Below, piece after piece: positions 14,063 through 58,617 of a stretch of DNA of 64,000 bases. The notes under the pieces were generated by a model that did not search any database, had not been told where the DNA came from, and saw only the letters and a program-made list of their open reading frames with translations. Origin of the DNA: Alphaproteobacteria bacterium (lineage in GTDB: Bacteria; Pseudomonadota; Alphaproteobacteria; Rhodospirillales; Rhodospirillaceae); NCBI GenBank assembly GCA_030835385.1, contig JAURPI010000005.1:1-64000 (forward strand), given 5' to 3'. The translations under genes were made by a program, and so were the position numbers. The stretch's first letter is position 1. Every line of letters starts with the position of its first letter.

Positions 14063-15262
14063 ATGATGAACAGACGGACTCTATTTGGAGCCTCAGCGGC
14101 CACGGCTTCTTTTGTCGGCGCTTTGTTCGGCAGCAAGAAAGCCTCAACAGCGACAACGACCTCTTCCAAATTTTCATCTGCTGATGTGGAACCCCGTGGC
14201 TCTAAGGGCCGCCTCGAACGGCTGCCGCGCCAGCACCTAGAAGCGCAACATGATTTCATCACCGGATTTCGTGTGTTCGCCAATCGCGACATGACCAGCG
14301 CCGCGCGGCGACGCATTGCCAAGATTATGCGGGCCAAGGGCATCGACCCCACCAAGCGTCTCTCTTATAAAGAAGTGCTAGGTCATGTTGGTGGTGACCC
14401 ACTCGTGGCGGCAAGTGCGCGCATGTGGCTTAGCGCCCAGCAAATTAATTGGAAAACCCTGTACGACGAATTTCATGGCAATGCCAACGCGTATCTTGCC
14501 GAAATGGAAGCAACCGACAATGCAGGTCCGGGCACGTTAGAACTCAATCCGGATATGTATATTCCAGAATATTTAACCCATGAAATTCACATTCAACCCG
14601 GTGGCTACGTCGGGGATGAATTTGCTGGTCACATTTATCACTACGGCACCAATAACTTCTTTGAAGGCCGTAATGATCAAGACGAGTTGCATATCGGTCT
14701 TGCCACAGCCATGCCCGAGCCAGAGGACGGCAAGGTGGTACGGGTGCTTGATCAAGGGTGCAGCTGTGGCCAGTTGAGTGTGGCGCTCAAGGAACGATTC
14801 CCAGACGCCGAGGTGTGGGGCATCGATGTTGGTGGGCCAATGGTCCGCTATGCCCACATGCGGGCAGTCGACATTGGCATTGACGTGAACTTCGCACAGC
14901 GCCTGGCTGAGGACTCTAAGTTCCCAGACAACCATTTTGACATTGCCACCAACAACATCATGTTCCACGAGGTGACAACCGAAGCGGCGCATGAAATTCT
15001 CGCGGAGTCCTTCCGGGTGTTACGTCCGGGTGGGGTGTATTACCCAATCGATTTCTATACCGGGAATCCGGCACCGAAAGGTGTGTTTAGTACCTTCCGG
15101 CAATGGTGGGACAGCCGCTGGAATGGCGAGCCCTGGCGATTAGACTATGCCAAGTTCGATATGGCGGCGGCGATGCGCAAGGCTGGATTCATAGTCAATG
15201 AAAACGGTCCGCCGAGCCGACGCGGCGCAAGACGTAATATTTTAGGAACGAAACCGACCTAA
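14063..15262 (+). CDS. Class I SAM-dependent methyltransferase with twin-arginine-like leader
   Basis: MMNRRTLFGASAATASFVGALFG leader; VLDQGCSCGQLSVALKERFPDAEVWGIDVG motif I region; same family as 56288 and 57415. Confidence 0.85.
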   Translation: MMNRRTLFGASAATASFVGALFGSKKASTATTTSSKFSSADVEPRGSKGRLERLPRQHLEAQHDFITGFRVFANRDMTSAARRRIAKIMRAKGIDPTKRLSYKEVLGHVGGDPLVAASARMWLSAQQINWKTLYDEFHGNANAYLAEMEATDNAGPGTLELNPDMYIPEYLTHEIHIQPGGYVGDEFAGHIYHYGTNNFFEGRNDQDELHIGLATAMPEPEDGKVVRVLDQGCSCGQLSVALKERFPDAEVWGIDVGGPMVRYAHMRAVDIGIDVNFAQRLAEDSKFPDNHFDIATNNIMFHEVTTEAAHEILAESFRVLRPGGVYYPIDFYTGNPAPKGVFSTFRQWWDSRWNGEPWRLDYAKFDMAAAMRKAGFIVNENGPPSRRGARRNILGTKPT

Positions 15263-19759: not shown

Positions 19760-20899
19760 GTGAAAACGCGATCAATGACAAAAGCCATCGGGCTCTGCGG
19801 AACACTGCTCGCCGGTGTGTGGACTGCGGGTGCACTTGCCCAATCCGTACCTGAGTTGGTTCGTCCTGATGGAAGCTATCCAACCGTTCCGTTGGAAAAA
19901 GATGTGGTCGTTCTCAAGGTCGTTCAAAACGAGCCTCAGCTTCTTCAAGAGGCCGAGAGCGTTGAAGCGGGCCTTAAAGAAAACGTCCGCCGGATGGGCT
20001 ATTGGATCAACAAGGCCTGCACGGAAGGCAAAAAGCCTGATTTCATTCTGTTCAATGAGTTTCCGCTGACCGGGTATTCCTCTGGCACGCGTGAAGAAAA
20101 ACTAAAGTTCACCATTCAAGTCCCTGGCCCCGAAACAAAAGCTATCGGTGAGTTTGCCAAAGCGTGTGACACCTACATCATCTTTGGTAGTTACGCGACG
20201 GACCCGGATTGGCCAGGCCATATTCTGAGCCTTAATCCAGTGATTGGCCGAGACGGTGAAATCAAACACACCTATTGGAAAACCCGCAACGCCTCTCGGT
20301 ATACCGATGACGGTGGAGAGATACCCACCACGACGATTGAAAACGTCCGAACCAAGTTTCGGGCGAAGTACGGCATTGCGGAAGAATTCCCGGTTCTGCA
20401 AACGGAGTTTGGCAATATCGCCGTGAGTACGGTTCAGATTGACCCATTTGTCTTTGCCGCCTTTGCCATGCGGGGGGTTGAGATCATGTTGCGCACGGCG
20501 ACCGGGTTTTCTGAAGTCGATGTGCAGGGGATTGCCTATTACAACAACGTCTATTCTGGTATGTCGAATATCACGTTCCCATCTAACCCGAACTTCCCCA
20601 AAGGGTTCGGCGGAAACTCGCTGATCGTCGCGCCGGGCGGCAAGATTTTAGCTCAGGAAAAAGGTGACGCCGAAGCCATCGTCGAAGCGGAACTTAATAT
20701 CGCAGAACTACGCAAGGATCGGCGTATCCCGCGTTATCCGATGGAAGTCGTCAAGCCGGTCTTCGATCAGTTTGTTCAGGAAGTTCCGATCGATATTCTT
20801 GATATCCCGCAAGATGAATTGCCGCAAACGCGACAAGATATGAAAGGGCTGATGGACCAGCGCAGCCGGTGGCTCAACCTGCAAGGTGATGCCGGCTAA
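19760..20899 (+). CDS. Secreted nitrilase-superfamily (C-N hydrolase fold) protein, probably non-canonical active site
   Basis: Signal peptide MTKAIGLCGTLLAGVWTAGALAQS; NEFPLTGYSSG Glu motif, ATDPDWPGH; the nucleophile region reads FGNIAVSTVQIDPFVFAAFAMRG with no Cys. Confidence 0.8.
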   Translation: MKTRSMTKAIGLCGTLLAGVWTAGALAQSVPELVRPDGSYPTVPLEKDVVVLKVVQNEPQLLQEAESVEAGLKENVRRMGYWINKACTEGKKPDFILFNEFPLTGYSSGTREEKLKFTIQVPGPETKAIGEFAKACDTYIIFGSYATDPDWPGHILSLNPVIGRDGEIKHTYWKTRNASRYTDDGGEIPTTTIENVRTKFRAKYGIAEEFPVLQTEFGNIAVSTVQIDPFVFAAFAMRGVEIMLRTATGFSEVDVQGIAYYNNVYSGMSNITFPSNPNFPKGFGGNSLIVAPGGKILAQEKGDAEAIVEAELNIAELRKDRRIPRYPMEVVKPVFDQFVQEVPIDILDIPQDELPQTRQDMKGLMDQRSRWLNLQGDAG

Positions 20900-38149: not shown

Positions 38150-38899
38150 CTAAAAAAGTGCCGAATAACCCTCTTCTTCTGGGCCTAAGCTTTCTAGAAA
38201 CGCTTGTATTTTCGGGTCCGCTTTAACTTCTTCAGAAACGTATTCTAATATATCTCTGGGCGCGTGCCCTAGGTTTTTAGTTGTGTTCAATGCTTTCATC
38301 ACAATTTCTATGTCAGATTTTAAGTTCTCTGCGGCAGAAGAGAGTGCATGCCCATTCGATTCAACTGCTGTCAAAACTATCTCTCTATCGCCCTTGAGGT
38401 CTTCGGAAGCATATTGCAGAGCCGTACCATTTTTGAGAACAGCCGCTAAAACTATCTCTCTGTCTCCCATCAACTCTGCGTCATCACTTATAAAAATAAG
38501 CGAATATCTGCCCCGTTCAGATCTGCAGGCAGTCAGAACTATTTCTCTATCTCCTCGGATCTCCCAGTAAACATCTTCAAGCGCATCGCTATTATTTCTT
38601 ACCGCTGCCATAGCAACGTCTTTGCTTTTTTTTAAGGCTTTCCGAGGCCCACTCTAGAGCCCTCCCATGTTTGCTGACTAGTGGTAATACTATTTCGTTG
38701 TCGGCGGCCAAATCTGAGGATACGTATTCAAACTGTCTGTAAGAAAAATCATCTTCATCACTCATTTGTTCAACCCAAGCCATTATAATCTCCTTATCTG
38801 ATCTAAGTTCTTCAGATAGATCCTCTAAGGAGTTTTCATCGTAAAAAAAACTCCGTTCTTTATTAAGTCGAGAACTTTGGCCTTATCACTTACTTGCAT
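38150..38899 (-). pseudogene. DUF4116-repeat protein, interrupted by two homopolymer frameshifts
   Basis: Repeats of the form (G)DREIVLTAVxxNGxALxYASEDLKGD; N-terminal, middle (38592..38783) and C-terminal (38150..38611) parts join if the T8 run at 38843-38850 (+1) and A8 run at 38626-38633 (-1) are corrected. Confidence 0.75.
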
Positions 38900-40705: not shown

Positions 40706-41599
40706 TTATCCCTCAAGCATCAATGTGCCGAGATAGAGACTCTCCTCTTGAACCTCGACTTTGGCAGAGTATTTGCCACCTGAGCCCTGGCTAATCTCAA
40801 GATCATAGGCGCCACTTCCCGGTGCTAACTTGTCCAGTTTGAATTCTCCAAAAACATCGGTCGACGCGCGAGCGATTTCAATTCCATTTTGGGACAAAAC
40901 GGCAGTGGCATTTTCCGCGCATTCGTCGACGCCATCGATCATGGTGACAACAGAACCGGCTACAAAGCAGCTATTCATCAAATGCAGGTTTTTGTAATAA
41001 ACGCGCGGCTTTGTTCCCTCCTCGGGAAGAAGCACGTCTAGCTCTTCTTCCCCTTTGATCCGCTGCATTTCAGCATCGCTGACTTTCAGAGTCTCAAAGA
41101 CATTTGTTGGGCAACTTTGCTGTGCGCGGGGCTTGGTCCAGCCTGAATCCAATAGATGGGCGTCGAATATCCACGCCTGAGGTATTTGCTTCTCTTCATT
41201 CCAGTAAACGGCGCCATATGGGCAGGCATCGACTATTTCTTTCTGCCCTTTGGATTTTTCTGGATCGATAATAACAATGCCGTCCGAGCGTTTTTTGATA
41301 GCGCCGTCTTTAGCAACCTTCATGCACGGCGCATTATCACAGTGATTGCACATCACGGGCATAAAATTAGCTTCTACAATTGGGTAGCTTCCCCGCTCCT
41401 TGTGGCGGATATCAACCCAACTGTGCTCTTTCTCAGGCTGAGCCGCCGCGTACCCTGGAAAGTCATTGCTAATGTGCTCGTCCTTAGCGGCAAGAAAACA
41501 ATTGCGACAATTGTCGCAGCGGGCAACATCAACGACCAGATTCCACTTCTTACTCATTAGACCGCCTCCGCCCGTTGCCACGTATCGACGCCGGTCCAT
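40706..41599 (-). CDS. Fe-S subunit of a pyrogallol transhydroxylase/resorcinol hydroxylase-like molybdoenzyme
   Basis: CDNCRNC, CNHCDNAPC ferredoxin motifs, ACPYGAVYWNEE, TKPRVYYKNL; C-terminal beta-barrel/CarboxypepD-reg-like domain as in AthS. GTG/ATG starts near 41560-41599. Confidence 0.85.
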   Translation of the reverse strand: MDRRRYVATGGGGLMSKKWNLVVDVARCDNCRNCFLAAKDEHISNDFPGYAAAQPEKEHSWVDIRHKERGSYPIVEANFMPVMCNHCDNAPCMKVAKDGAIKKRSDGIVIIDPEKSKGQKEIVDACPYGAVYWNEEKQIPQAWIFDAHLLDSGWTKPRAQQSCPTNVFETLKVSDAEMQRIKGEEELDVLLPEEGTKPRVYYKNLHLMNSCFVAGSVVTMIDGVDECAENATAVLSQNGIEIARASTDVFGEFKLDKLAPGSGAYDLEISQGSGGKYSAKVEVQEESLYLGTLMLEG

Positions 41600-44520
41600 T
41601 TCTCCATCTGGATTAAGGTCGTGTTGGGCTTAATGCTGTGGGTATGCTCCGTCATATTTTCGCTTGAGTTGAGCATGTTAACGCAACCACCGAGGTCTGT
41701 TGAATTTCCTGGCTCTCCAGCAGGTCTATATTCAGCTGATGCCGTTGGGGCACTCACCACACCCGGCTGAACGCGGTCTGTCACAAAAGCGGCGCAAACA
41801 ACAGACCCACGGTGATTCCACAATCGAATCAGATCACCACTCGCAATATCTCTATCTCGCGCATCTTTGCCGCTAATCGTGGCAACCAAATATTCGTGGC
41901 CGTCTACTCTCAACCGATGATCTTTGATGTCTCTTATCGTACAGCCCTTCTCATCTCCCATAATGTGGAAGGGATAACGGGTGTGCGGGGTTAGAAGCTG
42001 GAGAGGAAAGCCAGACAGGTGCTCATCTCTCTCTGGGTCCTCGTAGGTCGGCATATATTTATTCAGGGGCGGACGCCCAGAATCATCGATGTTCTTGAGT
42101 GAACTCGCGACAAACTCAAATTTGCCTGATGTTGTTTGTAGTCCCTCGCCAAAATTACCCTTGTAATCAGCGGGCAATGGATATGGTTCTGGGGTGTCTT
42201 TCTTACGCCCTTCATAAAACCAGCGATTTCCGGTAGGAGCGCGTGTCCCTTCAGAGACCGGCGGCACGACGTAGTAACCCTTTTTGAGGAAGTGCTTCCA
42301 CGTAATGTGCTTAGACATGTCAGATGAATCAAAAGCGCGCTTACACCAATCTAGCTCAGTATTACCGCCTTCAGAGTACATCGCCCCCATATCGAGGCGC
42401 TTCATAATCTCTAAGAAGATATCATGATCTGATTTCGATTCTCCGAGAGGTTCAATGCACTTGTGTTGCATTGAAATAACGCGGTGATTGTTCATGGAGT
42501 ACATGTGATGAACGTAACCCGCGCCCACATTGTACCACTCACCAATGTCATCGTGTTCAAAGACCGTGCATGCCGGTAGAACAATGTCGGCGTACTTTGT
42601 TTCGCCCTCCCACCAGATTGATTGGTTTACCACGAAGGGAAGTTTCTCGGATTGATACATCTTGATGTAACGGTTGGAGTCCATCTGTGTGCCCATGGAT
42701 GAACTGCCGTATTTGTACATCATCTCAATCTTGGCGTGGCCAGGCGCAGGATAGCCAACCTTCATGAATTGACCTTGAACCGTTGACACATCGGTCAGGT
42801 GACCAAGGGCGACGCCGTCAAGTATTGCCTCGGGGATAAACTTCCGCGGTATCGCCTGCCGCACCGTACTCATGGTGACGATATGCGGCATGCGTTGATA
42901 GTTATTGGCCGCGTTTGCGCTTTGTGTCAGTTCGCCAGACATACCGCCTTCGGCATATCCCGGGAAATAGAATGAGAAATCTACGGGTGCGCCGAACTGG
43001 AGATTGCCAAAGTTAACACCTGGTCGTCCATAGCCCTGCATGGCGCCGAGAATAGTCATCATCCGGGCCCATTGCGCCCCCATGGGACCACGCCCTGCTC
43101 CACCGAGACCACAGCCCCAACTTCCGGCGCCAAGATAGGTTTTTTTACGACCCCACTCTCGTGCAAGGGCTCGCACGTCGCGCGCCGGGATGCCCGTTTC
43201 CTTTTCTTGCCAATCTGGATCTTTAGGCGTGTTATCTGAGAGGCCGAGAATGTAATCCTTCCATTCCTCAAAGCCCTCGGTTCGCTTCTCTACAAACTCT
43301 TTGTCGTAAGTTCCTTCGGTGATCCAGACATGACATAAAGCTTGTGCTAATGCGGCATCTGTTCCTGGTTTTGGTGCGAACCACTTGCCGCCCATTAGGG
43401 CTGCCGTATGATTGAGATAAGGATCAATGTGCACCATTTTGATGCCCAGTTCCTTTGCCCAGGCCCGTCGGATGGTTCCTTCATAGCCATAGGTTTTGTC
43501 TGGATCGCTTGACCAGAAAACCATCATCTCTGCTTCTTTAAGGCAGTCTTCTACTGTGCCATAAAATTCTGGCGTACCGAGGCGCATGCTATTGCCCCAG
43601 TGGTGCATCGCTCCCCAAAACCAGCCTTCCCAACTATCGGGGCTGCCCATCATTTTTGTGCAGCCTAGAAGATTGGTGAATCTTCCAAACGCACTCAGGT
43701 AGTGACCAAAGTTACCCCATTGATGGTGTGATCCTGAGTTCGCAAATATTGCGCCGCGGCCCTTCGCCTTGGAGCGCTTGATTTCTTTTACTACTATATC
43801 GAGAGCTTCATCCCAGCTGATCGGGACAAACTCAGATTTGCCGCGGTTCTGAATATTGCGTTCGCCATCGACATCAAAATCCACCCGCTTCATCGGTGAC
43901 ATGATCCGATCTTCGGAATAGACCATCGACTTCAGGGCCAAGCCATGCGCTGCCAATGAGGTCTTACGAGGTGGCGTAAATTTCTTGCCCCGCGCTTCAA
44001 TAGTCCACGACTCTGCGTCGTCGTCATCGAATTCCATCGGTGTAATTCGAATAATTTTACCTTCTTTGACGTAGACAAAGATGGGGCCGCCATTTGTACC
44101 GTTGGTGTACCGGGTGACACCATTGCCCATATCGGTGCCGCTCTTCCAACCCACGGTGGTCATATAAGTCAAAGTGGAGGCGAACCAGACGACGAGTTCG
44201 TCAGGCCCTTCCATGCCGACTTTGAAGTTTTTCGCTGCATCAATGCGGGTCAATTGGTCAAATGGAGGCGTTAGAAATTCGGCCGCAATTGCCTTGTTAT
44301 GAAAGAAGAGGGAGAGATCTGGATTCTTATGAATTCCGCTCCCTGACTTAATTTTACCGTTCATGAACTGAATCCAACGTCCCGCTGAATTATCTTTCAG
44401 TTTGAACTGAGCAATGACGTCCCGCTCTTTCACACGAGCAGCGAACTTAGGATAAATACGGGTTGCTATACGGAGGGCCTGAACCAACCCCCATAGAATG
44501 ACAGAAAACTTCATTAACAT
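41557..44520 (-). CDS. Molybdopterin oxidoreductase large subunit, pyrogallol transhydroxylase/resorcinol hydroxylase-like, with N-terminal SCP2-like domain
   Basis: Molybdopterin family motifs (RVDFDVDGERNIQNRGKSEFVPISWDEALDIV, CTKMMGSPDSWEGWFWG, RRAWAKELGIKMVHIDP), molydop-binding C-terminus; ~130 aa N-terminal extension FKLKDNSAGRWIQFMNGKIKSGSGIHKNPDLSLFFHN. Confidence 0.88.
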   Translation of the reverse strand: MLMKFSVILWGLVQALRIATRIYPKFAARVKERDVIAQFKLKDNSAGRWIQFMNGKIKSGSGIHKNPDLSLFFHNKAIAAEFLTPPFDQLTRIDAAKNFKVGMEGPDELVVWFASTLTYMTTVGWKSGTDMGNGVTRYTNGTNGGPIFVYVKEGKIIRITPMEFDDDDAESWTIEARGKKFTPPRKTSLAAHGLALKSMVYSEDRIMSPMKRVDFDVDGERNIQNRGKSEFVPISWDEALDIVVKEIKRSKAKGRGAIFANSGSHHQWGNFGHYLSAFGRFTNLLGCTKMMGSPDSWEGWFWGAMHHWGNSMRLGTPEFYGTVEDCLKEAEMMVFWSSDPDKTYGYEGTIRRAWAKELGIKMVHIDPYLNHTAALMGGKWFAPKPGTDAALAQALCHVWITEGTYDKEFVEKRTEGFEEWKDYILGLSDNTPKDPDWQEKETGIPARDVRALAREWGRKKTYLGAGSWGCGLGGAGRGPMGAQWARMMTILGAMQGYGRPGVNFGNLQFGAPVDFSFYFPGYAEGGMSGELTQSANAANNYQRMPHIVTMSTVRQAIPRKFIPEAILDGVALGHLTDVSTVQGQFMKVGYPAPGHAKIEMMYKYGSSSMGTQMDSNRYIKMYQSEKLPFVVNQSIWWEGETKYADIVLPACTVFEHDDIGEWYNVGAGYVHHMYSMNNHRVISMQHKCIEPLGESKSDHDIFLEIMKRLDMGAMYSEGGNTELDWCKRAFDSSDMSKHITWKHFLKKGYYVVPPVSEGTRAPTGNRWFYEGRKKDTPEPYPLPADYKGNFGEGLQTTSGKFEFVASSLKNIDDSGRPPLNKYMPTYEDPERDEHLSGFPLQLLTPHTRYPFHIMGDEKGCTIRDIKDHRLRVDGHEYLVATISGKDARDRDIASGDLIRLWNHRGSVVCAAFVTDRVQPGVVSAPTASAEYRPAGEPGNSTDLGGCVNMLNSSENMTEHTHSIKPNTTLIQMEKWTGVDTWQRAEAV

Positions 44521-44672: not shown

Positions 44673-45515
44673 TTACAATTCGAGGTAATCGTCTAACTCT
44701 TTAACTATGTCCGGAAAATGTATCTGGTTATTTCGGGCAAGATCGCTTGGCAGTTCTTCGTAATCAGCGATGACCCGTCCCGCTCCACGAGACATTGTAA
44801 CACCATGGATTTCGGCCATATCCATCCAAGGCCGCCAACTGATGATATTCACTTTATCAACGGTTGTTGGCACGTGAGATATTGAACTATTAACAAGAGC
44901 ATTGGCGTCCGCCCGGAAAGCGAACACCTCATGAAATTTGAGCGGCGCTCCTCCGTCCGTCATCGGTGGAACGTATGAGTCAATACGTTCATTTAACATC
45001 ATATCCCCACCGACACTTGGCAGTGGTTCTAACCAATGCGTGTTGACCACACCTTCCATAGTGTAGGGTTCATTTATGATTTTGAGGTCGAGAGGAATTT
45101 CGAAGCGAGTTGGGCCTAGTACTTGCGCAGGCACTGTGACTGTTCGGTCGGTGTACGGGTTGTTCCATATTTCCATCACTGCGCCAGTCTTAAGGTCAGT
45201 GAAGAATACGAATTCAAAGTATACAGCCACGTAGCTGCCGTCTTCGCGACGTCGATGACGTGTAAAGACCTGCTGCGATATGCCCATTAGTTGGGTGGTC
45301 TCTTGTTCAATGATTGCTGACAAGACGCCATAGGTCCACCGGATGGCAATTTTTCCATCCGTTCGGCCCATCATACGAATTATTTTGTCTAATCGATCGG
45401 CAGGTTCTCCCCATTTCAATGAGGTCGCTACTGGACTCCTTAGACCACTGGACAAGAGTGTGATTGCGCCAAGCGCCGCTGTCGCACCGAGGTGTCGTCT
45501 AGAAAGAAATGGAAT
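44673..45515 (-). CDS. DUF1838-family protein with Tat-like leader, apparent ATT start
   Basis: ORF listed from TTG 45455; in-frame upstream codons from ATT 45515 encode (M)PFLSRRHLGATAALGAITLLSSGL. DLKTGAVMEIWNNPYTDRTVTVP is DUF1838-like. Confidence 0.7.
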   Translation of the reverse strand: MPFLSRRHLGATAALGAITLLSSGLRSPVATSLKWGEPADRLDKIIRMMGRTDGKIAIRWTYGVLSAIIEQETTQLMGISQQVFTRHRRREDGSYVAVYFEFVFFTDLKTGAVMEIWNNPYTDRTVTVPAQVLGPTRFEIPLDLKIINEPYTMEGVVNTHWLEPLPSVGGDMMLNERIDSYVPPMTDGGAPLKFHEVFAFRADANALVNSSISHVPTTVDKVNIISWRPWMDMAEIHGVTMSRGAGRVIADYEELPSDLARNNQIHFPDIVKELDDYLEL

Positions 45516-47365: not shown

Positions 47366-48409
47366 CTATTTGTCTTCAGGTAGATTCACCACGCCTGCCT
47401 CGGCCATCTTGCCCAAGGCCTCCTCTTGCAGTTCCATGATTCTCGCTTTTGAATCCATTGGAGCATCTGCAAATGCATTCGGCGGGTAGAATGAAGACTC
47501 ATTGTACAATGGTCGATACATCTCAATACGTTGGCGCAAAAGCCTATTGCCTGCTCCCGGTATACGTCGTTCGCGACGCAACGCTTCGACATCAATAGTT
47601 GCTGACGCCACAGTGCTCTCTCCAGGGCCACCGACATCAGCAAGAATACGTCCGTGAAAGTCGATGATTTTGGAGTGACCAAGCGTTTGCCCCTCTGGAA
47701 TAAAGGCTCCGATTTGTCCCGTAGCATTTGTTGAGATGAGATACATCATGTTCTCTGAGGCCCGAACTTTCTTAGCTGATTCCCAGCCCCATTTATCTGC
47801 AGCTCCATGATCAGAGGTCGGGTGAAGCAGCACTTCAGCTCCTCTAAACATGAACATCCTGGCGGCTTCCGGATACATGATCTCTCCACAGGGCATCATT
47901 GCGATGTTGCCTAATGGGGTCTTAGCAACCGGGAACGTGCCCTCTAGGCCATACTTGTCCAAATACGCATCCATGAAGTCGTGGGGTGATGCGGTATGAA
48001 CCGTATTAATACGGCGATACTTAAGAATGATGTCGCCTGATGGGTCAATTAGGTAGCAGCAATTAAAATAGCGTCCCGGCCAATCAGGATCTTTTTCATA
48101 ACTGTTCGCGCCGATATAACACTTAAGGTCCTGTGCTGCTTTTTGAAGCTTGGCTGTTTCAGGGCCAGGAATCTCAATACACGCTTTATCAATCCACTCC
48201 TCCGCCGACTCAAGAAGTGGAAAGCCAGTTAGAGCAAACTCCGGGTACAATAGTACGTAGGGCCCTACCCCCCTTGCAGTTCCCTTCGCGAGAGTCACCC
48301 AGCGATCGAGGCTTTTGTTTACAATCGCCATCGCTTCTTCGCGATTGGTCGCGCTGTTGACGGTGTGTGTGTAGACCTGCATGCAGGTCGCTGTCCAAGG
48401 CTGAACCAT
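47366..48409 (-). CDS. Nitrilase/aliphatic amidase superfamily protein
   Basis: YPEFALTGFP Glu, LKYRRINTVH, GNIAMMPCGEIMYPEAAR Cys nucleophile region. Confidence 0.88.
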   Translation of the reverse strand: MVQPWTATCMQVYTHTVNSATNREEAMAIVNKSLDRWVTLAKGTARGVGPYVLLYPEFALTGFPLLESAEEWIDKACIEIPGPETAKLQKAAQDLKCYIGANSYEKDPDWPGRYFNCCYLIDPSGDIILKYRRINTVHTASPHDFMDAYLDKYGLEGTFPVAKTPLGNIAMMPCGEIMYPEAARMFMFRGAEVLLHPTSDHGAADKWGWESAKKVRASENMMYLISTNATGQIGAFIPEGQTLGHSKIIDFHGRILADVGGPGESTVASATIDVEALRRERRIPGAGNRLLRQRIEMYRPLYNESSFYPPNAFADAPMDSKARIMELQEEALGKMAEAGVVNLPEDK

Positions 48410-48432: not shown

Positions 48433-49470
48433 TTACTTGCGTGGTGGCAGCATGTCGTTATTGACCATGTTATCTAAGGCAACGTTTAGCGCCTCTTTGA
48501 CCGCCTTACGAGATTCCATTGGTTTTTCTGCAAACCTATTTACAGGGTAAATTGAAGTGGAGGCGTATAAGGCTGCATACGCTTCTGGACGGGATTGCGC
48601 CAATCGGTTGAAACCGCCCCGTGTAGAGCGCACACGACGCAACGCCTCAACGTCGATCAGCGAAGAGCATCGTAACGATTCCCCTGGTGTAGGACCTTGC
48701 GTCAGAACTCTTCCTTCCCAGTCGAAGATTCTAGATTGCCCAGCGATATCGTTAATGCCGCGGTAGGCTTCTGGCATACCGCCAGCGTTTGCCGAGATAA
48801 AGTAAACCATGTTTTCTGAGGCACGGACCTTCTTTGCGGATTGCCAACTCCAATTATCGTCTGCGCCATAATCAGATGTTGGATGGAGGATAACTTCAGC
48901 TCCCCTAAAGGCCAACGCTCTTGCTGCTTCGGGATACATAACTTCACCGCAGGGCATCATGCCAATGTTGCCCAGGGGAGTCTTGGCGACAGGGAACATG
49001 CCCTCGATACCGTACTTGTCGAGATACTTATCTAGAAAATCATGTGGTGACGCAGAATGGGCCGTGTTGATGCGCCGGTATTTCAAGATAATTTCACCCG
49101 AGTCATCTATTAGGTATGAGCAATTGAAGTAACGGCCAGGCCACTCCGGATCAGTTTCGTAACTGTTCGCACCGATGTAGCATTTGTAGTCCTGAGCCAA
49201 TTTTTGCAGGCGCTCTGTCTCTGGTCCAGGAATCTCAAAGCATGCTTTGGCAATCCACTCTTCTGCACTCTCATGAATGGGAAACCCTTGTAGGGCAAAT
49301 TCGGGAAACAACATCAGCTGTTTTTCGTCGCTGCGTTTGGCGGCCCCGACCAGTTCCGTCCAACGGTCGAGACTTTTATGTACGATTGCCATTGCATCGT
49401 CGCGGGTCGACACCCGATTAAGAATGCGGGTGTAGATCTGCATACAGGTCGCGCGCCACGGATTAATCAT
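48433..49470 (-). CDS. Nitrilase/aliphatic amidase superfamily protein, tandem paralog
   Basis: Closely similar to 47366 CDS throughout: FPEFALQGFP, LKYRRINTAHSASPHDFLDKYLDKYG, GNIGMMPCGEVMYPEAAR. Confidence 0.88.
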   Translation of the reverse strand: MINPWRATCMQIYTRILNRVSTRDDAMAIVHKSLDRWTELVGAAKRSDEKQLMLFPEFALQGFPIHESAEEWIAKACFEIPGPETERLQKLAQDYKCYIGANSYETDPEWPGRYFNCSYLIDDSGEIILKYRRINTAHSASPHDFLDKYLDKYGIEGMFPVAKTPLGNIGMMPCGEVMYPEAARALAFRGAEVILHPTSDYGADDNWSWQSAKKVRASENMVYFISANAGGMPEAYRGINDIAGQSRIFDWEGRVLTQGPTPGESLRCSSLIDVEALRRVRSTRGGFNRLAQSRPEAYAALYASTSIYPVNRFAEKPMESRKAVKEALNVALDNMVNNDMLPPRK

Positions 49471-55062: not shown

Positions 55063-56262
55063 TTACTTCCAGCTGCCGAAGATAAACCAACTCGCGCCAT
55101 TACCATGCTGCGGCACTGGCATATCTCCATTCACAAATGCCTCAAATTTATCGTGCCCAAAGGAGGAATAGTTGGGTATGAGGAATTTCAAACACTTCTC
55201 AGACTGGAACCCGGCGTCGCTGCAAAGCCCCAGAACATCTTGATTTCTGAATTCGGCGTAGAAAGGTTCATTATTGTTGGAGCCTGCGTCCCAATCTAAG
55301 TAGAACGCATAGTAGGGATCGACCTCAGAATTGGGCGGTAATTCCATATGGACCATGAGGCCACCGGGCTTAAGAACACGGTACGCCTCTCCAAAAATGG
55401 CTTGCGTTGATTTGACCGGCAACTCGTGTAGAAAAAAGCTCGACGTAACGATGTCAAAGGTGTTGTCTTCAAAATCTAAATGTTCTGCATTCTGTTGAGA
55501 AAAGTGTACCGGATGCCCCTCATAAGACGCGACGGCATGACCATAACGAAGCAGGGGCGCTCCGACATCGACACCATAGGCTTCAGCATTTGGAAAAACG
55601 TCAAGGTAAGGAAAGAGGTTCTTTCCCGTATTGCAACCAAGATCCAGAATGCGCCTAGGGTCGAACTCTGGGTGTTTTAACTTGAGATAATGCGCTATCG
55701 ACTCCCCAACCCCGCCTGGATTGCCTTTTCTATGGCGAAACCCACCCCGAAAGACGTCACCACCAGCAACCTGTACTGCGCCCTGCGCTACATCATCCTG
55801 CGTATGTTCAGTATGAAAACATCCAGGCATGAGATGTACATCGAGCGCCGACACATAGCGAGGAATCTCTAGCTGGGGATCAAGACGGAGCGAGCCGCCT
55901 GCAGGATTCATAACGGCGGCGTCTTTGGCCAGATCGATCATCTCTGTTAAAGCTCGCTCAACACCATTTTGCACCGATGCCCACACCATTTCTTGCGCAT
56001 TGTATCGAAGAGAGCTCCACATCCTATAAAGTGTGCGGGTCTCCATGGCTTTCTTTACATCGCGTGCCGTTGAAGGTTCGGATCCCGTTTTAGCGGCGTA
56101 GGCAGGTTTAACATTGGACTCATAGTCTCTACGCATCTCAGATGCTAGATCGACCATGATGTGCTTACGCAACGCACTCACAAATCCCTGGCGTGACAAT
56201 TCTGTTGGACTGAAAGTCATCACTTCAGAAATATCAGAAAGGTTTTTGTTTTGATCGAGCAT
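55063..56262 (-). CDS. Class I SAM-dependent methyltransferase
   Basis: RILDLGCNTGKNLFPYLDVFPNAEAYGVDVG; LRLDPQLEIPRY...HLMPGCF signature shared with the two downstream neighbours. Confidence 0.85.
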   Translation of the reverse strand: MLDQNKNLSDISEVMTFSPTELSRQGFVSALRKHIMVDLASEMRRDYESNVKPAYAAKTGSEPSTARDVKKAMETRTLYRMWSSLRYNAQEMVWASVQNGVERALTEMIDLAKDAAVMNPAGGSLRLDPQLEIPRYVSALDVHLMPGCFHTEHTQDDVAQGAVQVAGGDVFRGGFRHRKGNPGGVGESIAHYLKLKHPEFDPRRILDLGCNTGKNLFPYLDVFPNAEAYGVDVGAPLLRYGHAVASYEGHPVHFSQQNAEHLDFEDNTFDIVTSSFFLHELPVKSTQAIFGEAYRVLKPGGLMVHMELPPNSEVDPYYAFYLDWDAGSNNNEPFYAEFRNQDVLGLCSDAGFQSEKCLKFLIPNYSSFGHDKFEAFVNGDMPVPQHGNGASWFIFGSWK

Positions 56263-56287: not shown

Positions 56288-57412
56288 TTAAGCCTTCTTA
56301 GTACCTAATAAGTTATAGCGGCTACGCCACGCCGGTGGCCCCTCTCGCGTGACCTCAAATCCCGCATCAGCCATCGCTTTGGGAAAATCAAAGCGCGCAT
56401 ACTCCTGGCGCCAGACTTCTTCATTCCAACGATGATCTTTCCACTGGCTATACTTGGCATAGGCCGAACGCGCACCCGGTGACGAACCGGTCTGAAAATC
56501 GATCGGGAAAAACACACCGCCCGGACGCAGGATGCGGTGGACCTCTTTGGTGATCTCTTTAGAGATCTCTTCCGGCACTTCGTGATGGAGAATATAAGAA
56601 GCCACGACATCAAAGTGGTTGTCTGGGAACTTGGTATCTTCCGCCATGCGCTGGGCGAAATTAACGGCCACATCAAGTTCAACCGCTCGCATATGCCCAT
56701 AGCGAATCATTGGCCCACCGGCATCAATGCCCCATACCTCGGCATCGGCAAACCGCTCTTTCAGAGCAACGGCTAATTGCCCAATGCCACATCCGATGTC
56801 GAGAACTCGTGTAACTTTGCGATCTTCAGGTTCAGGTACCTGATTCCCAAGTCGGGTGTGCAGCTCATCCTGGTAGTTGAAAAGCTTACCGGCGTTATAA
56901 AAATTGTTTGTGCTGTAGTGGTAGATGTGTCCGGCAAAAGCATTGCCAACATAGCCACCCGGCTGCGTATGGATCTCATAGCGGGCGTAATCGGGAATAT
57001 CTAAATCAGGGTCTAACTCGAGACTTCCCGGCCCTCTATTGTCAAATTCTTCCATTTCCGCCAGGTAGTAGTCCGCATTCGACTTAAACTCTTCGTCAAA
57101 GTTTCGGTGCATGACGTCATGAACGCCCGTTCGATAACGAGCAGCCACGCCAATGATCGGATCACCGTCAATTGCGGCAAATATCTCTTCCATCGGTGTA
57201 TCTGTTGACTTCGGGTCGATCCCTGCTTGCTCAAGAAGCTGATCGAACCGCTTGACGGCGGCGGGAATTGCGCGATCGGATCCCCAAGTGCGATAGCCGG
57301 TGAGAAAATCATCTCGGCTTTCCACGTCAAGGGTCGCGAGGCGTTCTAAGCGCCCTTTCGAGCCGCGAGGCTCTTGGTCAAACTTTAGTTTGGACGCCAT
57401 TTCTCTCTCCAA
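56288..57412 (-). CDS. Class I SAM-dependent methyltransferase (no leader)
   Basis: VLDIGCGIGQLAVALKERFADAEVWGIDAGGPMIRYGHMRAVEL; EPRGSKGRLERL N-terminus. Confidence 0.87.
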   Translation of the reverse strand: MEREMASKLKFDQEPRGSKGRLERLATLDVESRDDFLTGYRTWGSDRAIPAAVKRFDQLLEQAGIDPKSTDTPMEEIFAAIDGDPIIGVAARYRTGVHDVMHRNFDEEFKSNADYYLAEMEEFDNRGPGSLELDPDLDIPDYARYEIHTQPGGYVGNAFAGHIYHYSTNNFYNAGKLFNYQDELHTRLGNQVPEPEDRKVTRVLDIGCGIGQLAVALKERFADAEVWGIDAGGPMIRYGHMRAVELDVAVNFAQRMAEDTKFPDNHFDVVASYILHHEVPEEISKEITKEVHRILRPGGVFFPIDFQTGSSPGARSAYAKYSQWKDHRWNEEVWRQEYARFDFPKAMADAGFEVTREGPPAWRSRYNLLGTKKA

Positions 57413-57414
57413 CT

Positions 57415-58617
57415 TTAGGCAGTTTTGGTGCCAAAGATATTGCGATTGCTATACCAGGCCGGCGACCCTTCCTTATTCACGTCGAAACCAGCTGTCTCCA
57501 TGTCGCCTGCAAAATCCATCTCTTTGTACTCAATGCGCCAGACTTCGTTGTTCCAGCGATGGTCTTTCCATTCTTGATATTGTGAATAGGCTCCCGGCAC
57601 ACCCCGGCGTCCCCCAGTATAAAAATCTATTGGGAAGTAAAGTCCGCCCTTGCGCAATACGCGGTGCGCTTCCTTAAATACGGCGCGACTGATGTCGGCC
57701 GGTATCTCATGATGAAGAATGTAACTTGTTACAATGTCAAAATGTCCGTCGGGGAAATCTGTGGCCTCAGCCAGACCTTGAACAAAATTGACTTCAACTC
57801 CTTCGTCAACGGCGCGCATATGACCGTACCGAATCATCGGTCCGCCCACTTCAACACCCCAGACTTCGGCGTCAGGGAAGCGTTCCTTTAGGGCGACAGT
57901 AAGCTGGCCTAACCCGCAACCCATATCGAGGATGCGGAGGACTTTGCCATCTTCAGGGGTTGGTATTTGTTCTGCTAGCCGAGCATGATGTTGGTCTTGG
58001 TAATTGTCAGTTGCTCGCGCCGAGTAAAATGCATTCGTTCCGTAGTGATAGAGATGCCCTGCAAACGGATTACCGACATAGCCACCTGGCTGCATATGAA
58101 TTTCATGTTTGGCATAGCTCGGGATATCGAGATCCGGATCAAGCTTTAACGTACCCGGTCCGATTTTGTCGTAAGCCTCCATCTCACCAAGATAAGTCTC
58201 AGCATCGTCCGCAAAAGCGAGATAAAAGTTCCTATGTGCAAAACGCTGGCTATAGACTCTCATTAAGCCTTCTGTACCGACCAAGTGATCTTCCGCAATC
58301 AACTCATGGATTTGCTCCATAGGCAGTTCTTGTTTGGGATCATGGCCTGCTTCGCTGATAACTTTATCAAAACGCACCTTTGCAGCACGCTGAACAGTTG
58401 AACCCCGCCAATTACGGAAGCCGGTGAGAAAGTCATCACGGCCTTCTGCGTCAAGGGTCGGCAAACGTTCTAAGCGACCTAAAGCGCCCCGTTTCTCAAC
58501 ATCGGGCAGAGCGTTTTTTGTAGAGGATTTAGCCGTTGCTTTACGGCCAGTCAGCAGCGACGCGGCAGCTGTTCCTATTCCTGCGGCAGCCCCAAATAAA
58601 GTCCGACGGTCCAACAT
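57415..58617 (-). CDS. Class I SAM-dependent methyltransferase with twin-arginine leader
   Basis: MLDRRTLFGAAAGIGTAAASLLTGRKATAK leader; ILDMGCGLGQLTVALKERFPDAEVWGVEVGGPMIRYGHMRAVDEG. Confidence 0.87.
   Translation of the reverse strand: MLDRRTLFGAAAGIGTAAASLLTGRKATAKSSTKNALPDVEKRGALGRLERLPTLDAEGRDDFLTGFRNWRGSTVQRAAKVRFDKVISEAGHDPKQELPMEQIHELIAEDHLVGTEGLMRVYSQRFAHRNFYLAFADDAETYLGEMEAYDKIGPGTLKLDPDLDIPSYAKHEIHMQPGGYVGNPFAGHLYHYGTNAFYSARATDNYQDQHHARLAEQIPTPEDGKVLRILDMGCGLGQLTVALKERFPDAEVWGVEVGGPMIRYGHMRAVDEGVEVNFVQGLAEATDFPDGHFDIVTSYILHHEIPADISRAVFKEAHRVLRKGGLYFPIDFYTGGRRGVPGAYSQYQEWKDHRWNNEVWRIEYKEMDFAGDMETAGFDVNKEGSPAWYSNRNIFGTKTA

Follow-up and report, generated by a model that had tools for sequence, protein, structure and literature searches.

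The window (the whole 64,000-nucleotide stretch of DNA analyzed) carries a gene pair that probably encodes a soluble bis-MGD molybdoenzyme related to the transhydroxylase AthLS. Its Fe-S subunit retains eight of the 12 ligand Cys of AthS, and all four replaced ones (I-4, IV-1, IV-2, and IV-3) fall at the site of a single cluster, FS2. We regard the anatomy of the pair as solid; its function we infer from the features of the pair and from its relatives. The two genes lie as follows.

41557..44520, minus strand: gene for the large (molybdenum) subunit, AhtL-like, 987 amino acids.
40706..41557, minus strand: gene for the Fe-S subunit (AthS-like), 283 amino acids, with two predicted [4Fe-4S] sites (FS1 and FS3) and a C-terminal beta domain.

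The ATG of the Fe-S subunit gene overlaps the TAA stop of the large-subunit gene (TAATG), which makes a start at 41557 the most likely one. The original prediction had placed the gene at 40706–41599; the less likely start at 41599 would run about 40 bases into the end of the large-subunit gene. The nearest solved relative of the Fe-S subunit is AthS (PDB 4v4c_B; phmmer E 7e-75), with 43% identity over a full-length alignment. Its AlphaFold model (pLDDT 90.5) adopted the fold of 4v4c_B (Foldseek TM 0.90/0.93), so that the alignment and modeling originally proposed as checks both recovered an AthS-like small subunit. The large subunit matched PF21423 (AhtL-like domain 1, E 1e-29), PF00384, and PF01568 in Pfam, and scored 879 bits against 4v4c_A with phmmer.

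Alignment with AthS located the lost ligands at these codons and the retained ligands in the span given last.

41486..41488, minus strand: Ala24, at lost FS2 ligand I-4.
41171..41173, minus strand: Trp129, at lost FS2 ligand IV-1; invariant in the clade described below.
41162..41164, minus strand: Asp132, at lost FS2 ligand IV-2; likewise invariant in the clade.
41123..41125, minus strand: Ala145, at lost FS2 ligand IV-3.
41111..41518, minus strand: span of the kept ligands, C14, C17, C20, and C149 for FS1 and C70, C73, C78, and C112 for FS3.

These assignments confirm the residue reading made earlier from the letters (C to A, C to W, C to D, and C to A, with eight ligands retained). The accompanying proposal, that I-4 pairs with IV-1, IV-2, and IV-3 around one cluster as in ferredoxins, agrees with the ligand table of NarH, in which residues 16, 19, 22, and 263 hold FS1; Cys26, 244, 247, and 259 hold FS2; 184, 187, 192, and 227 hold FS3; and 196, 217, and 223 hold FS4 (PMC5338063). 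Since the changed positions match the FS2 set by motif, FS2 is the cluster that would be missing. Electrons in ethylbenzene dehydrogenase (EbDH) run from FS0 to FS4 in order; its FS2 lies 6.6 Å from FS1 and 5.4 Å from FS3, edge to edge, and has the lowest potential of the series, near −400 mV (PMC8840923). The lost cluster would thus be the middle one, because FS2 of EbDH sits between FS1 and FS3. The chance that four losses among 12 ligands remove one complete cluster is 3/495 (0.6%).

AthS itself already lacks FS4 (II-4 plus III-1, III-2, and III-3) when compared with 16-Cys relatives, a point on which the original prediction needed correction. Proteins of the PsrB/NrfC type, DmsB, and NarH share the double-ferredoxin core and have 16 ligand positions, for FS1–FS4; all four sites are likewise present in the 16-Cys relatives L114 and L115. 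The window subunit, and with it the clade defined by Trp and Asp at IV-1 and IV-2 (the WD clade), is without FS2 and FS4, and so departs from the four clusters in two ferredoxin domains by which four-cluster molybdoenzyme beta-subunits are recognized. A Trp replaces one Cys in FS4 of NarH. The window subunit, too, has a Trp at a ligand position, but NarH keeps a [3Fe-4S] cluster there, with the three FS4 Cys listed above, whereas all four FS2 ligands are gone here.

A scan of 85,488 species returned 49 loci, 42 of which carry the W and D (54–98% identical). Six keep all 12 Cys and are ∼40% relatives in Desulfobulbaceae, Dehalococcoidia, and others; the last is a fragment. Intermediates were added by searching genomes of the order. 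Matches (WD members plus a few 12- or 16-Cys relatives) came from 44 of 300 genomes drawn from the order and 6 of 296 from the class; in an evenly spread draw of 399 genomes from the phylum, the window was the sole clade member. The hosts belong to the Alpha-, Beta-, and Gammaproteobacteria, with further members in cultured Rhizobium, Ensifer, Cupriavidus, and Burkholderia. Literature searches turned up no description of the clade. Some genomes of family f19 (G553, G579, G599, G634, and others) have two to four paralogues each, in differing ligand states, with 12-Cys and WD forms side by side in some of them.

W129 and D132 did not vary across the 99 rows of the WD set (a few of which are the same gene fetched twice). 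Trp5 and Trp140 were equally invariant (99/99, as for Trp129), and these three positions are mostly not Trp in the 12-Cys relatives. The other two lost ligands behave differently: the residue at I-4 may be T, V, A, D, N, E, or C, and that at IV-3 V, A, I, M, L, G, P, or C. L126, L147, and L148 keep both of these Cys beside the W and D, and other intermediates keep one. Two trees were built with the ligand columns removed; both were quick searches, in which AthS forms a long branch. They place the W/D change once, at a single clade origin (SH-aLRT 100), with at least seven changes at I-4 and at least five at IV-3. AthS branches next to the clade (support 98 and 93), so that the WD proteins would form a new clade, sister to pyrogallol-phloroglucinol transhydroxylase. 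The I-4 and IV-3 Cys were lost later and repeatedly, and in some members one or both persist. The loss of FS2 is therefore read most economically as stepwise: CxxC first became WxxD, after which the two Cys left without partners drifted. The check originally proposed, whether all four substitutions co-occur in close homologs, thus has a divided outcome: W and D always appear together and have one origin, whereas I-4 and IV-3 were lost independently several times, so that no one event removed all four ligands.

The intermediates bear on whether another cofactor occupies the site, either a [2Fe-2S] cluster held by two Cys and the Asp or a mononuclear metal. Members with both Cys beside W and D are where this would apply best; both are lost in the window protein and its close relatives, and we consider such a cofactor highly improbable. 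As a separate observation, one subclade (L086-L091, L093-L095, L097, L100, L101, L105, and L121) has Ser at FS1 ligand I-2 (pattern CSC), and a second cluster, FS1, may be altered there.

Against relatives, pN was 0.03–0.09 for the large subunit and 0.10–0.18 for the small subunit, with pS saturated for both. The faster evolution of the small subunit is what a degenerating gene might display. However, the frames are open in nearly all members, its pN contrasts with a saturated pS, and most ligands, together with the W and D, are invariant across classes, so that decay has next to no probability. Open frames, clade-wide retention of W/D, and a pN far below pS instead support the Fe-S subunit as a maintained, functionally conserved protein. 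In the nearest relative, L003, synonymous divergence from window positions 40709–44520 is 0.045 for the small subunit and 0.195 for the large; the lower value hints at recombination inside the operon.

The large subunit differs from AthL in having an additional domain, and its Mo site is AthL-like.

44146..44514, minus strand: SCP2-fold domain at the N-terminus of the large subunit; neither AthL nor any of the 12-Cys relatives has it.
43747..43749, minus strand: His258, aligned to active-site His144 of AthL.
43654..43656, minus strand: Ser289, aligned to Mo-ligand Ser175 of AthL.
42955..42957, minus strand: Tyr522, aligned to active-site Tyr404 of AthL.

Every full-length large subunit of the WD clade has ∼1000 amino acids and a conserved N-terminal extra domain of ∼130; those of 12- and 16-Cys relatives have about 840–870 and no such domain. 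No Pfam family matched the domain up to E 10. Its AlphaFold model (pLDDT 82) gave AF1534, SCP2 domains of alkylsulfatases, and UbiJ as top Foldseek matches (E 7e-6, TM about 0.6), and an SCP2 (sterol-carrier) fold is therefore predicted. The C-terminal domain of alkylsulfatase, UbiJ, and AF1534 share this fold; in the window it is fused to a molybdoenzyme. We take H144, D174, and Y404 of AthL to be Mo-site or active-site residues. Among WD large subunits, H144 is conserved in 64/64, S175 in 64/64, D174 in 61/64, and Y404 in 83/83. Ser ligation of Mo is found in the RhL/PgtL group, and this Ser-ligated family is the likeness between the window pair and resorcinol hydroxylase RhLS (PMC10100899). 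The large subunits inspected, those of the 16-Cys L114 and L115 among them, had no FS0 Cys motif. A NarJ/TorD-type chaperone gene (PF02613) adjoins the pair in L021 and L024, which suggests that Mo is still inserted; this gene and the MoaA encoded in the window's own genome make a Mo enzyme likely.

The closest comparison is AthLS/PgtLS of Pelobacter acidigallici (PDB 4v4c, formerly the 1TI2 family; PF21423). The two-subunit plan, the Mo-site residues, the small-subunit fold with its C-terminal beta domain, and the lack of FS0 and FS4 are common to both. AthS, however, has 12 Cys for FS1–FS3 and AthL has no SCP2 domain, whereas the window pair is without FS2 and has that domain. Three [4Fe-4S] clusters on 12 Cys mark AthLS proper, as does a large subunit of ∼870 amino acids starting at the Mo domain; with 8/12 Cys and the FS2 set lost, and a ∼130-residue N-terminal extension, the window enzyme is, on its sequence, a variant of the transhydroxylase kind outside AthLS proper.

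In the window, the pair has as neighbors one gene for a DUF1838 protein, two of the nitrilase family, and two membrane genes with poor conservation. The DUF1838 protein is encoded directly upstream of the large subunit (44673–45455, minus strand), and homologs occur near the pair also in L003, L004, L005, L008, and L026. The nitrilase-family (CN_hydrolase) genes (47366–48409 and 48433–49470, minus strand) stand in tandem beside the molybdoenzyme locus, with a third at 19760–20899 (plus strand); homologs lie near the pair in L007, L019, L021, L022, and L026. The membrane genes (39860 and 45558) were dismissed as candidate electron partners, being almost unconserved beyond near relatives, and no conserved electron-transfer partner or acceptor gene was found near the pair. 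Elsewhere in the window, a small protein of four DUF4116 repeats (GDREIVLxA) is encoded at 38150–38611 (minus strand), and four related class I methyltransferases at 14063–15262 (plus strand) and 55063–56262, 56288–57412, and 57415–58617 (minus strand), three of them at 49–59% identity. Two of the four begin with a twin-arginine-like motif (NRRTLFGAS and DRRTLFGAA), which is odd for SAM-dependent enzymes.

In cultured relatives, the pair is found on megaplasmids, with a small subunit 49–52% identical to that of the window (43% in Salipiger). Its operon companions there, not every gene at every locus, are extradiol-dioxygenase-like VOC proteins, an FAA hydrolase, an acyl-CoA synthetase, and FadL/TodX or OmpW porins. 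The VOC proteins resemble the HpaD/catechol 2,3-dioxygenase type, with scores below the curated cut-offs. No ring-cleavage operon adjoins the pair in the window, and one query of its own genome found no extradiol dioxygenase. That genome encodes a heme-copper oxidase, which points to an aerobic life of the host. Taken together, the SCP2 domain, the ring-cleavage genes, and a porin that admits hydrophobic compounds suggest a hydrophobic phenol as substrate, a reading that draws on neighborhoods of relatives ∼43–52% identical in the small subunit rather than on the window. Ubiquinone-type hydroxylation, raised by the SCP2 fold of UbiJ, was rejected, the pair not being linked to ubi genes.

Because the Mo site is AthL-like, hydroxyl transfer or hydroxylation would be the reaction. 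The reading we favor, to which we give an even chance, is hydroxyl transfer on hydrophobic phenols by an enzyme whose Fe-S subunit is no longer a through-wire. The substrate, a phenolic lipid or a hydrophobic (poly)phenol, would be delivered or held by the SCP2 domain, the Mo site would add or move a ring hydroxyl, and the product would pass to extradiol ring cleavage in aerobic bacteria. Such a reaction would need little or no electron export, and the Fe-S subunit need not be a continuous wire; FS1 and FS3 would stay for folding and docking, and Trp129 and Asp132, with the clade-specific Trp5 and Trp140, would fill and stabilize the former FS2 site. An idle Fe-S subunit would agree with redox-neutral chemistry and with FS0 and FS4 being absent. 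Counting against it, the complete invariance of W and D may be more than simple packing needs, and if the reaction were a net hydroxylation, like that of resorcinol hydroxylase, electrons would need a way out.

An alternative is a short relay in a true hydroxylase, with electrons passing from FS1, or directly from the Mo site, to some acceptor, and with FS3 in a structural role. The related resorcinol hydroxylase performs a net oxidation (PMC10100899), and acceptors are present in aerobic hosts. The nearest cluster would nevertheless be far from Mo without FS0, and no conserved acceptor gene accompanies the pair; we judge this short relay improbable.

The fixed Trp residues raise a further alternative, in which transfer between FS1 and FS3 persists and Trp129, perhaps with Trp5 and Trp140, is a hopping station in place of the very low potential FS2. 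The ligands of both outer clusters are retained, and without FS2 the gap between them would be roughly 16–17 Å (estimated from the EbDH distances), too long for a single fast step. Oxidizing Trp, though, takes a high potential, in which it differs from ordinary Fe-S relays. Moreover, with FS0 and FS4 missing, the usual partner is lacking at both ends of the wire, and no conserved gene for an electron-transfer partner was found; we consider this rewired relay unlikely and rank a non-conducting subunit above a Trp stepping stone. Correspondingly doubtful is the broader proposal that a Trp-based site replaced the middle [4Fe-4S] cluster and still carries electrons between FS1 and FS3, while a lipid-carrier domain was acquired in parallel to serve an aerobic pathway in which the hydroxyls of phenolic lipids are moved. 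The original prediction of selected rewiring rather than decay therefore stands in one respect, the loss of one complete site in a conserved protein; the rewiring we hold to be possible but unlikely. As the FS0 motif is unseen and FS4 was already gone, the relay was perhaps just taken out of service.

The family offers a natural series of relay dismantling, from 16 to 12 to eight ligands with a complete cluster set removed at each step, and its living intermediates reveal the order of loss, W/D first and the other two Cys later. It provides a test case for the role of Fe-S clusters in an enzyme whose known relative carries out redox-neutral chemistry, and for whether a Trp can take over from a cluster. 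The pair also points to an undescribed aerobic route in culturable soil bacteria, in which a transhydroxylase-like molybdoenzyme would be combined with a lipid-binding-type domain.
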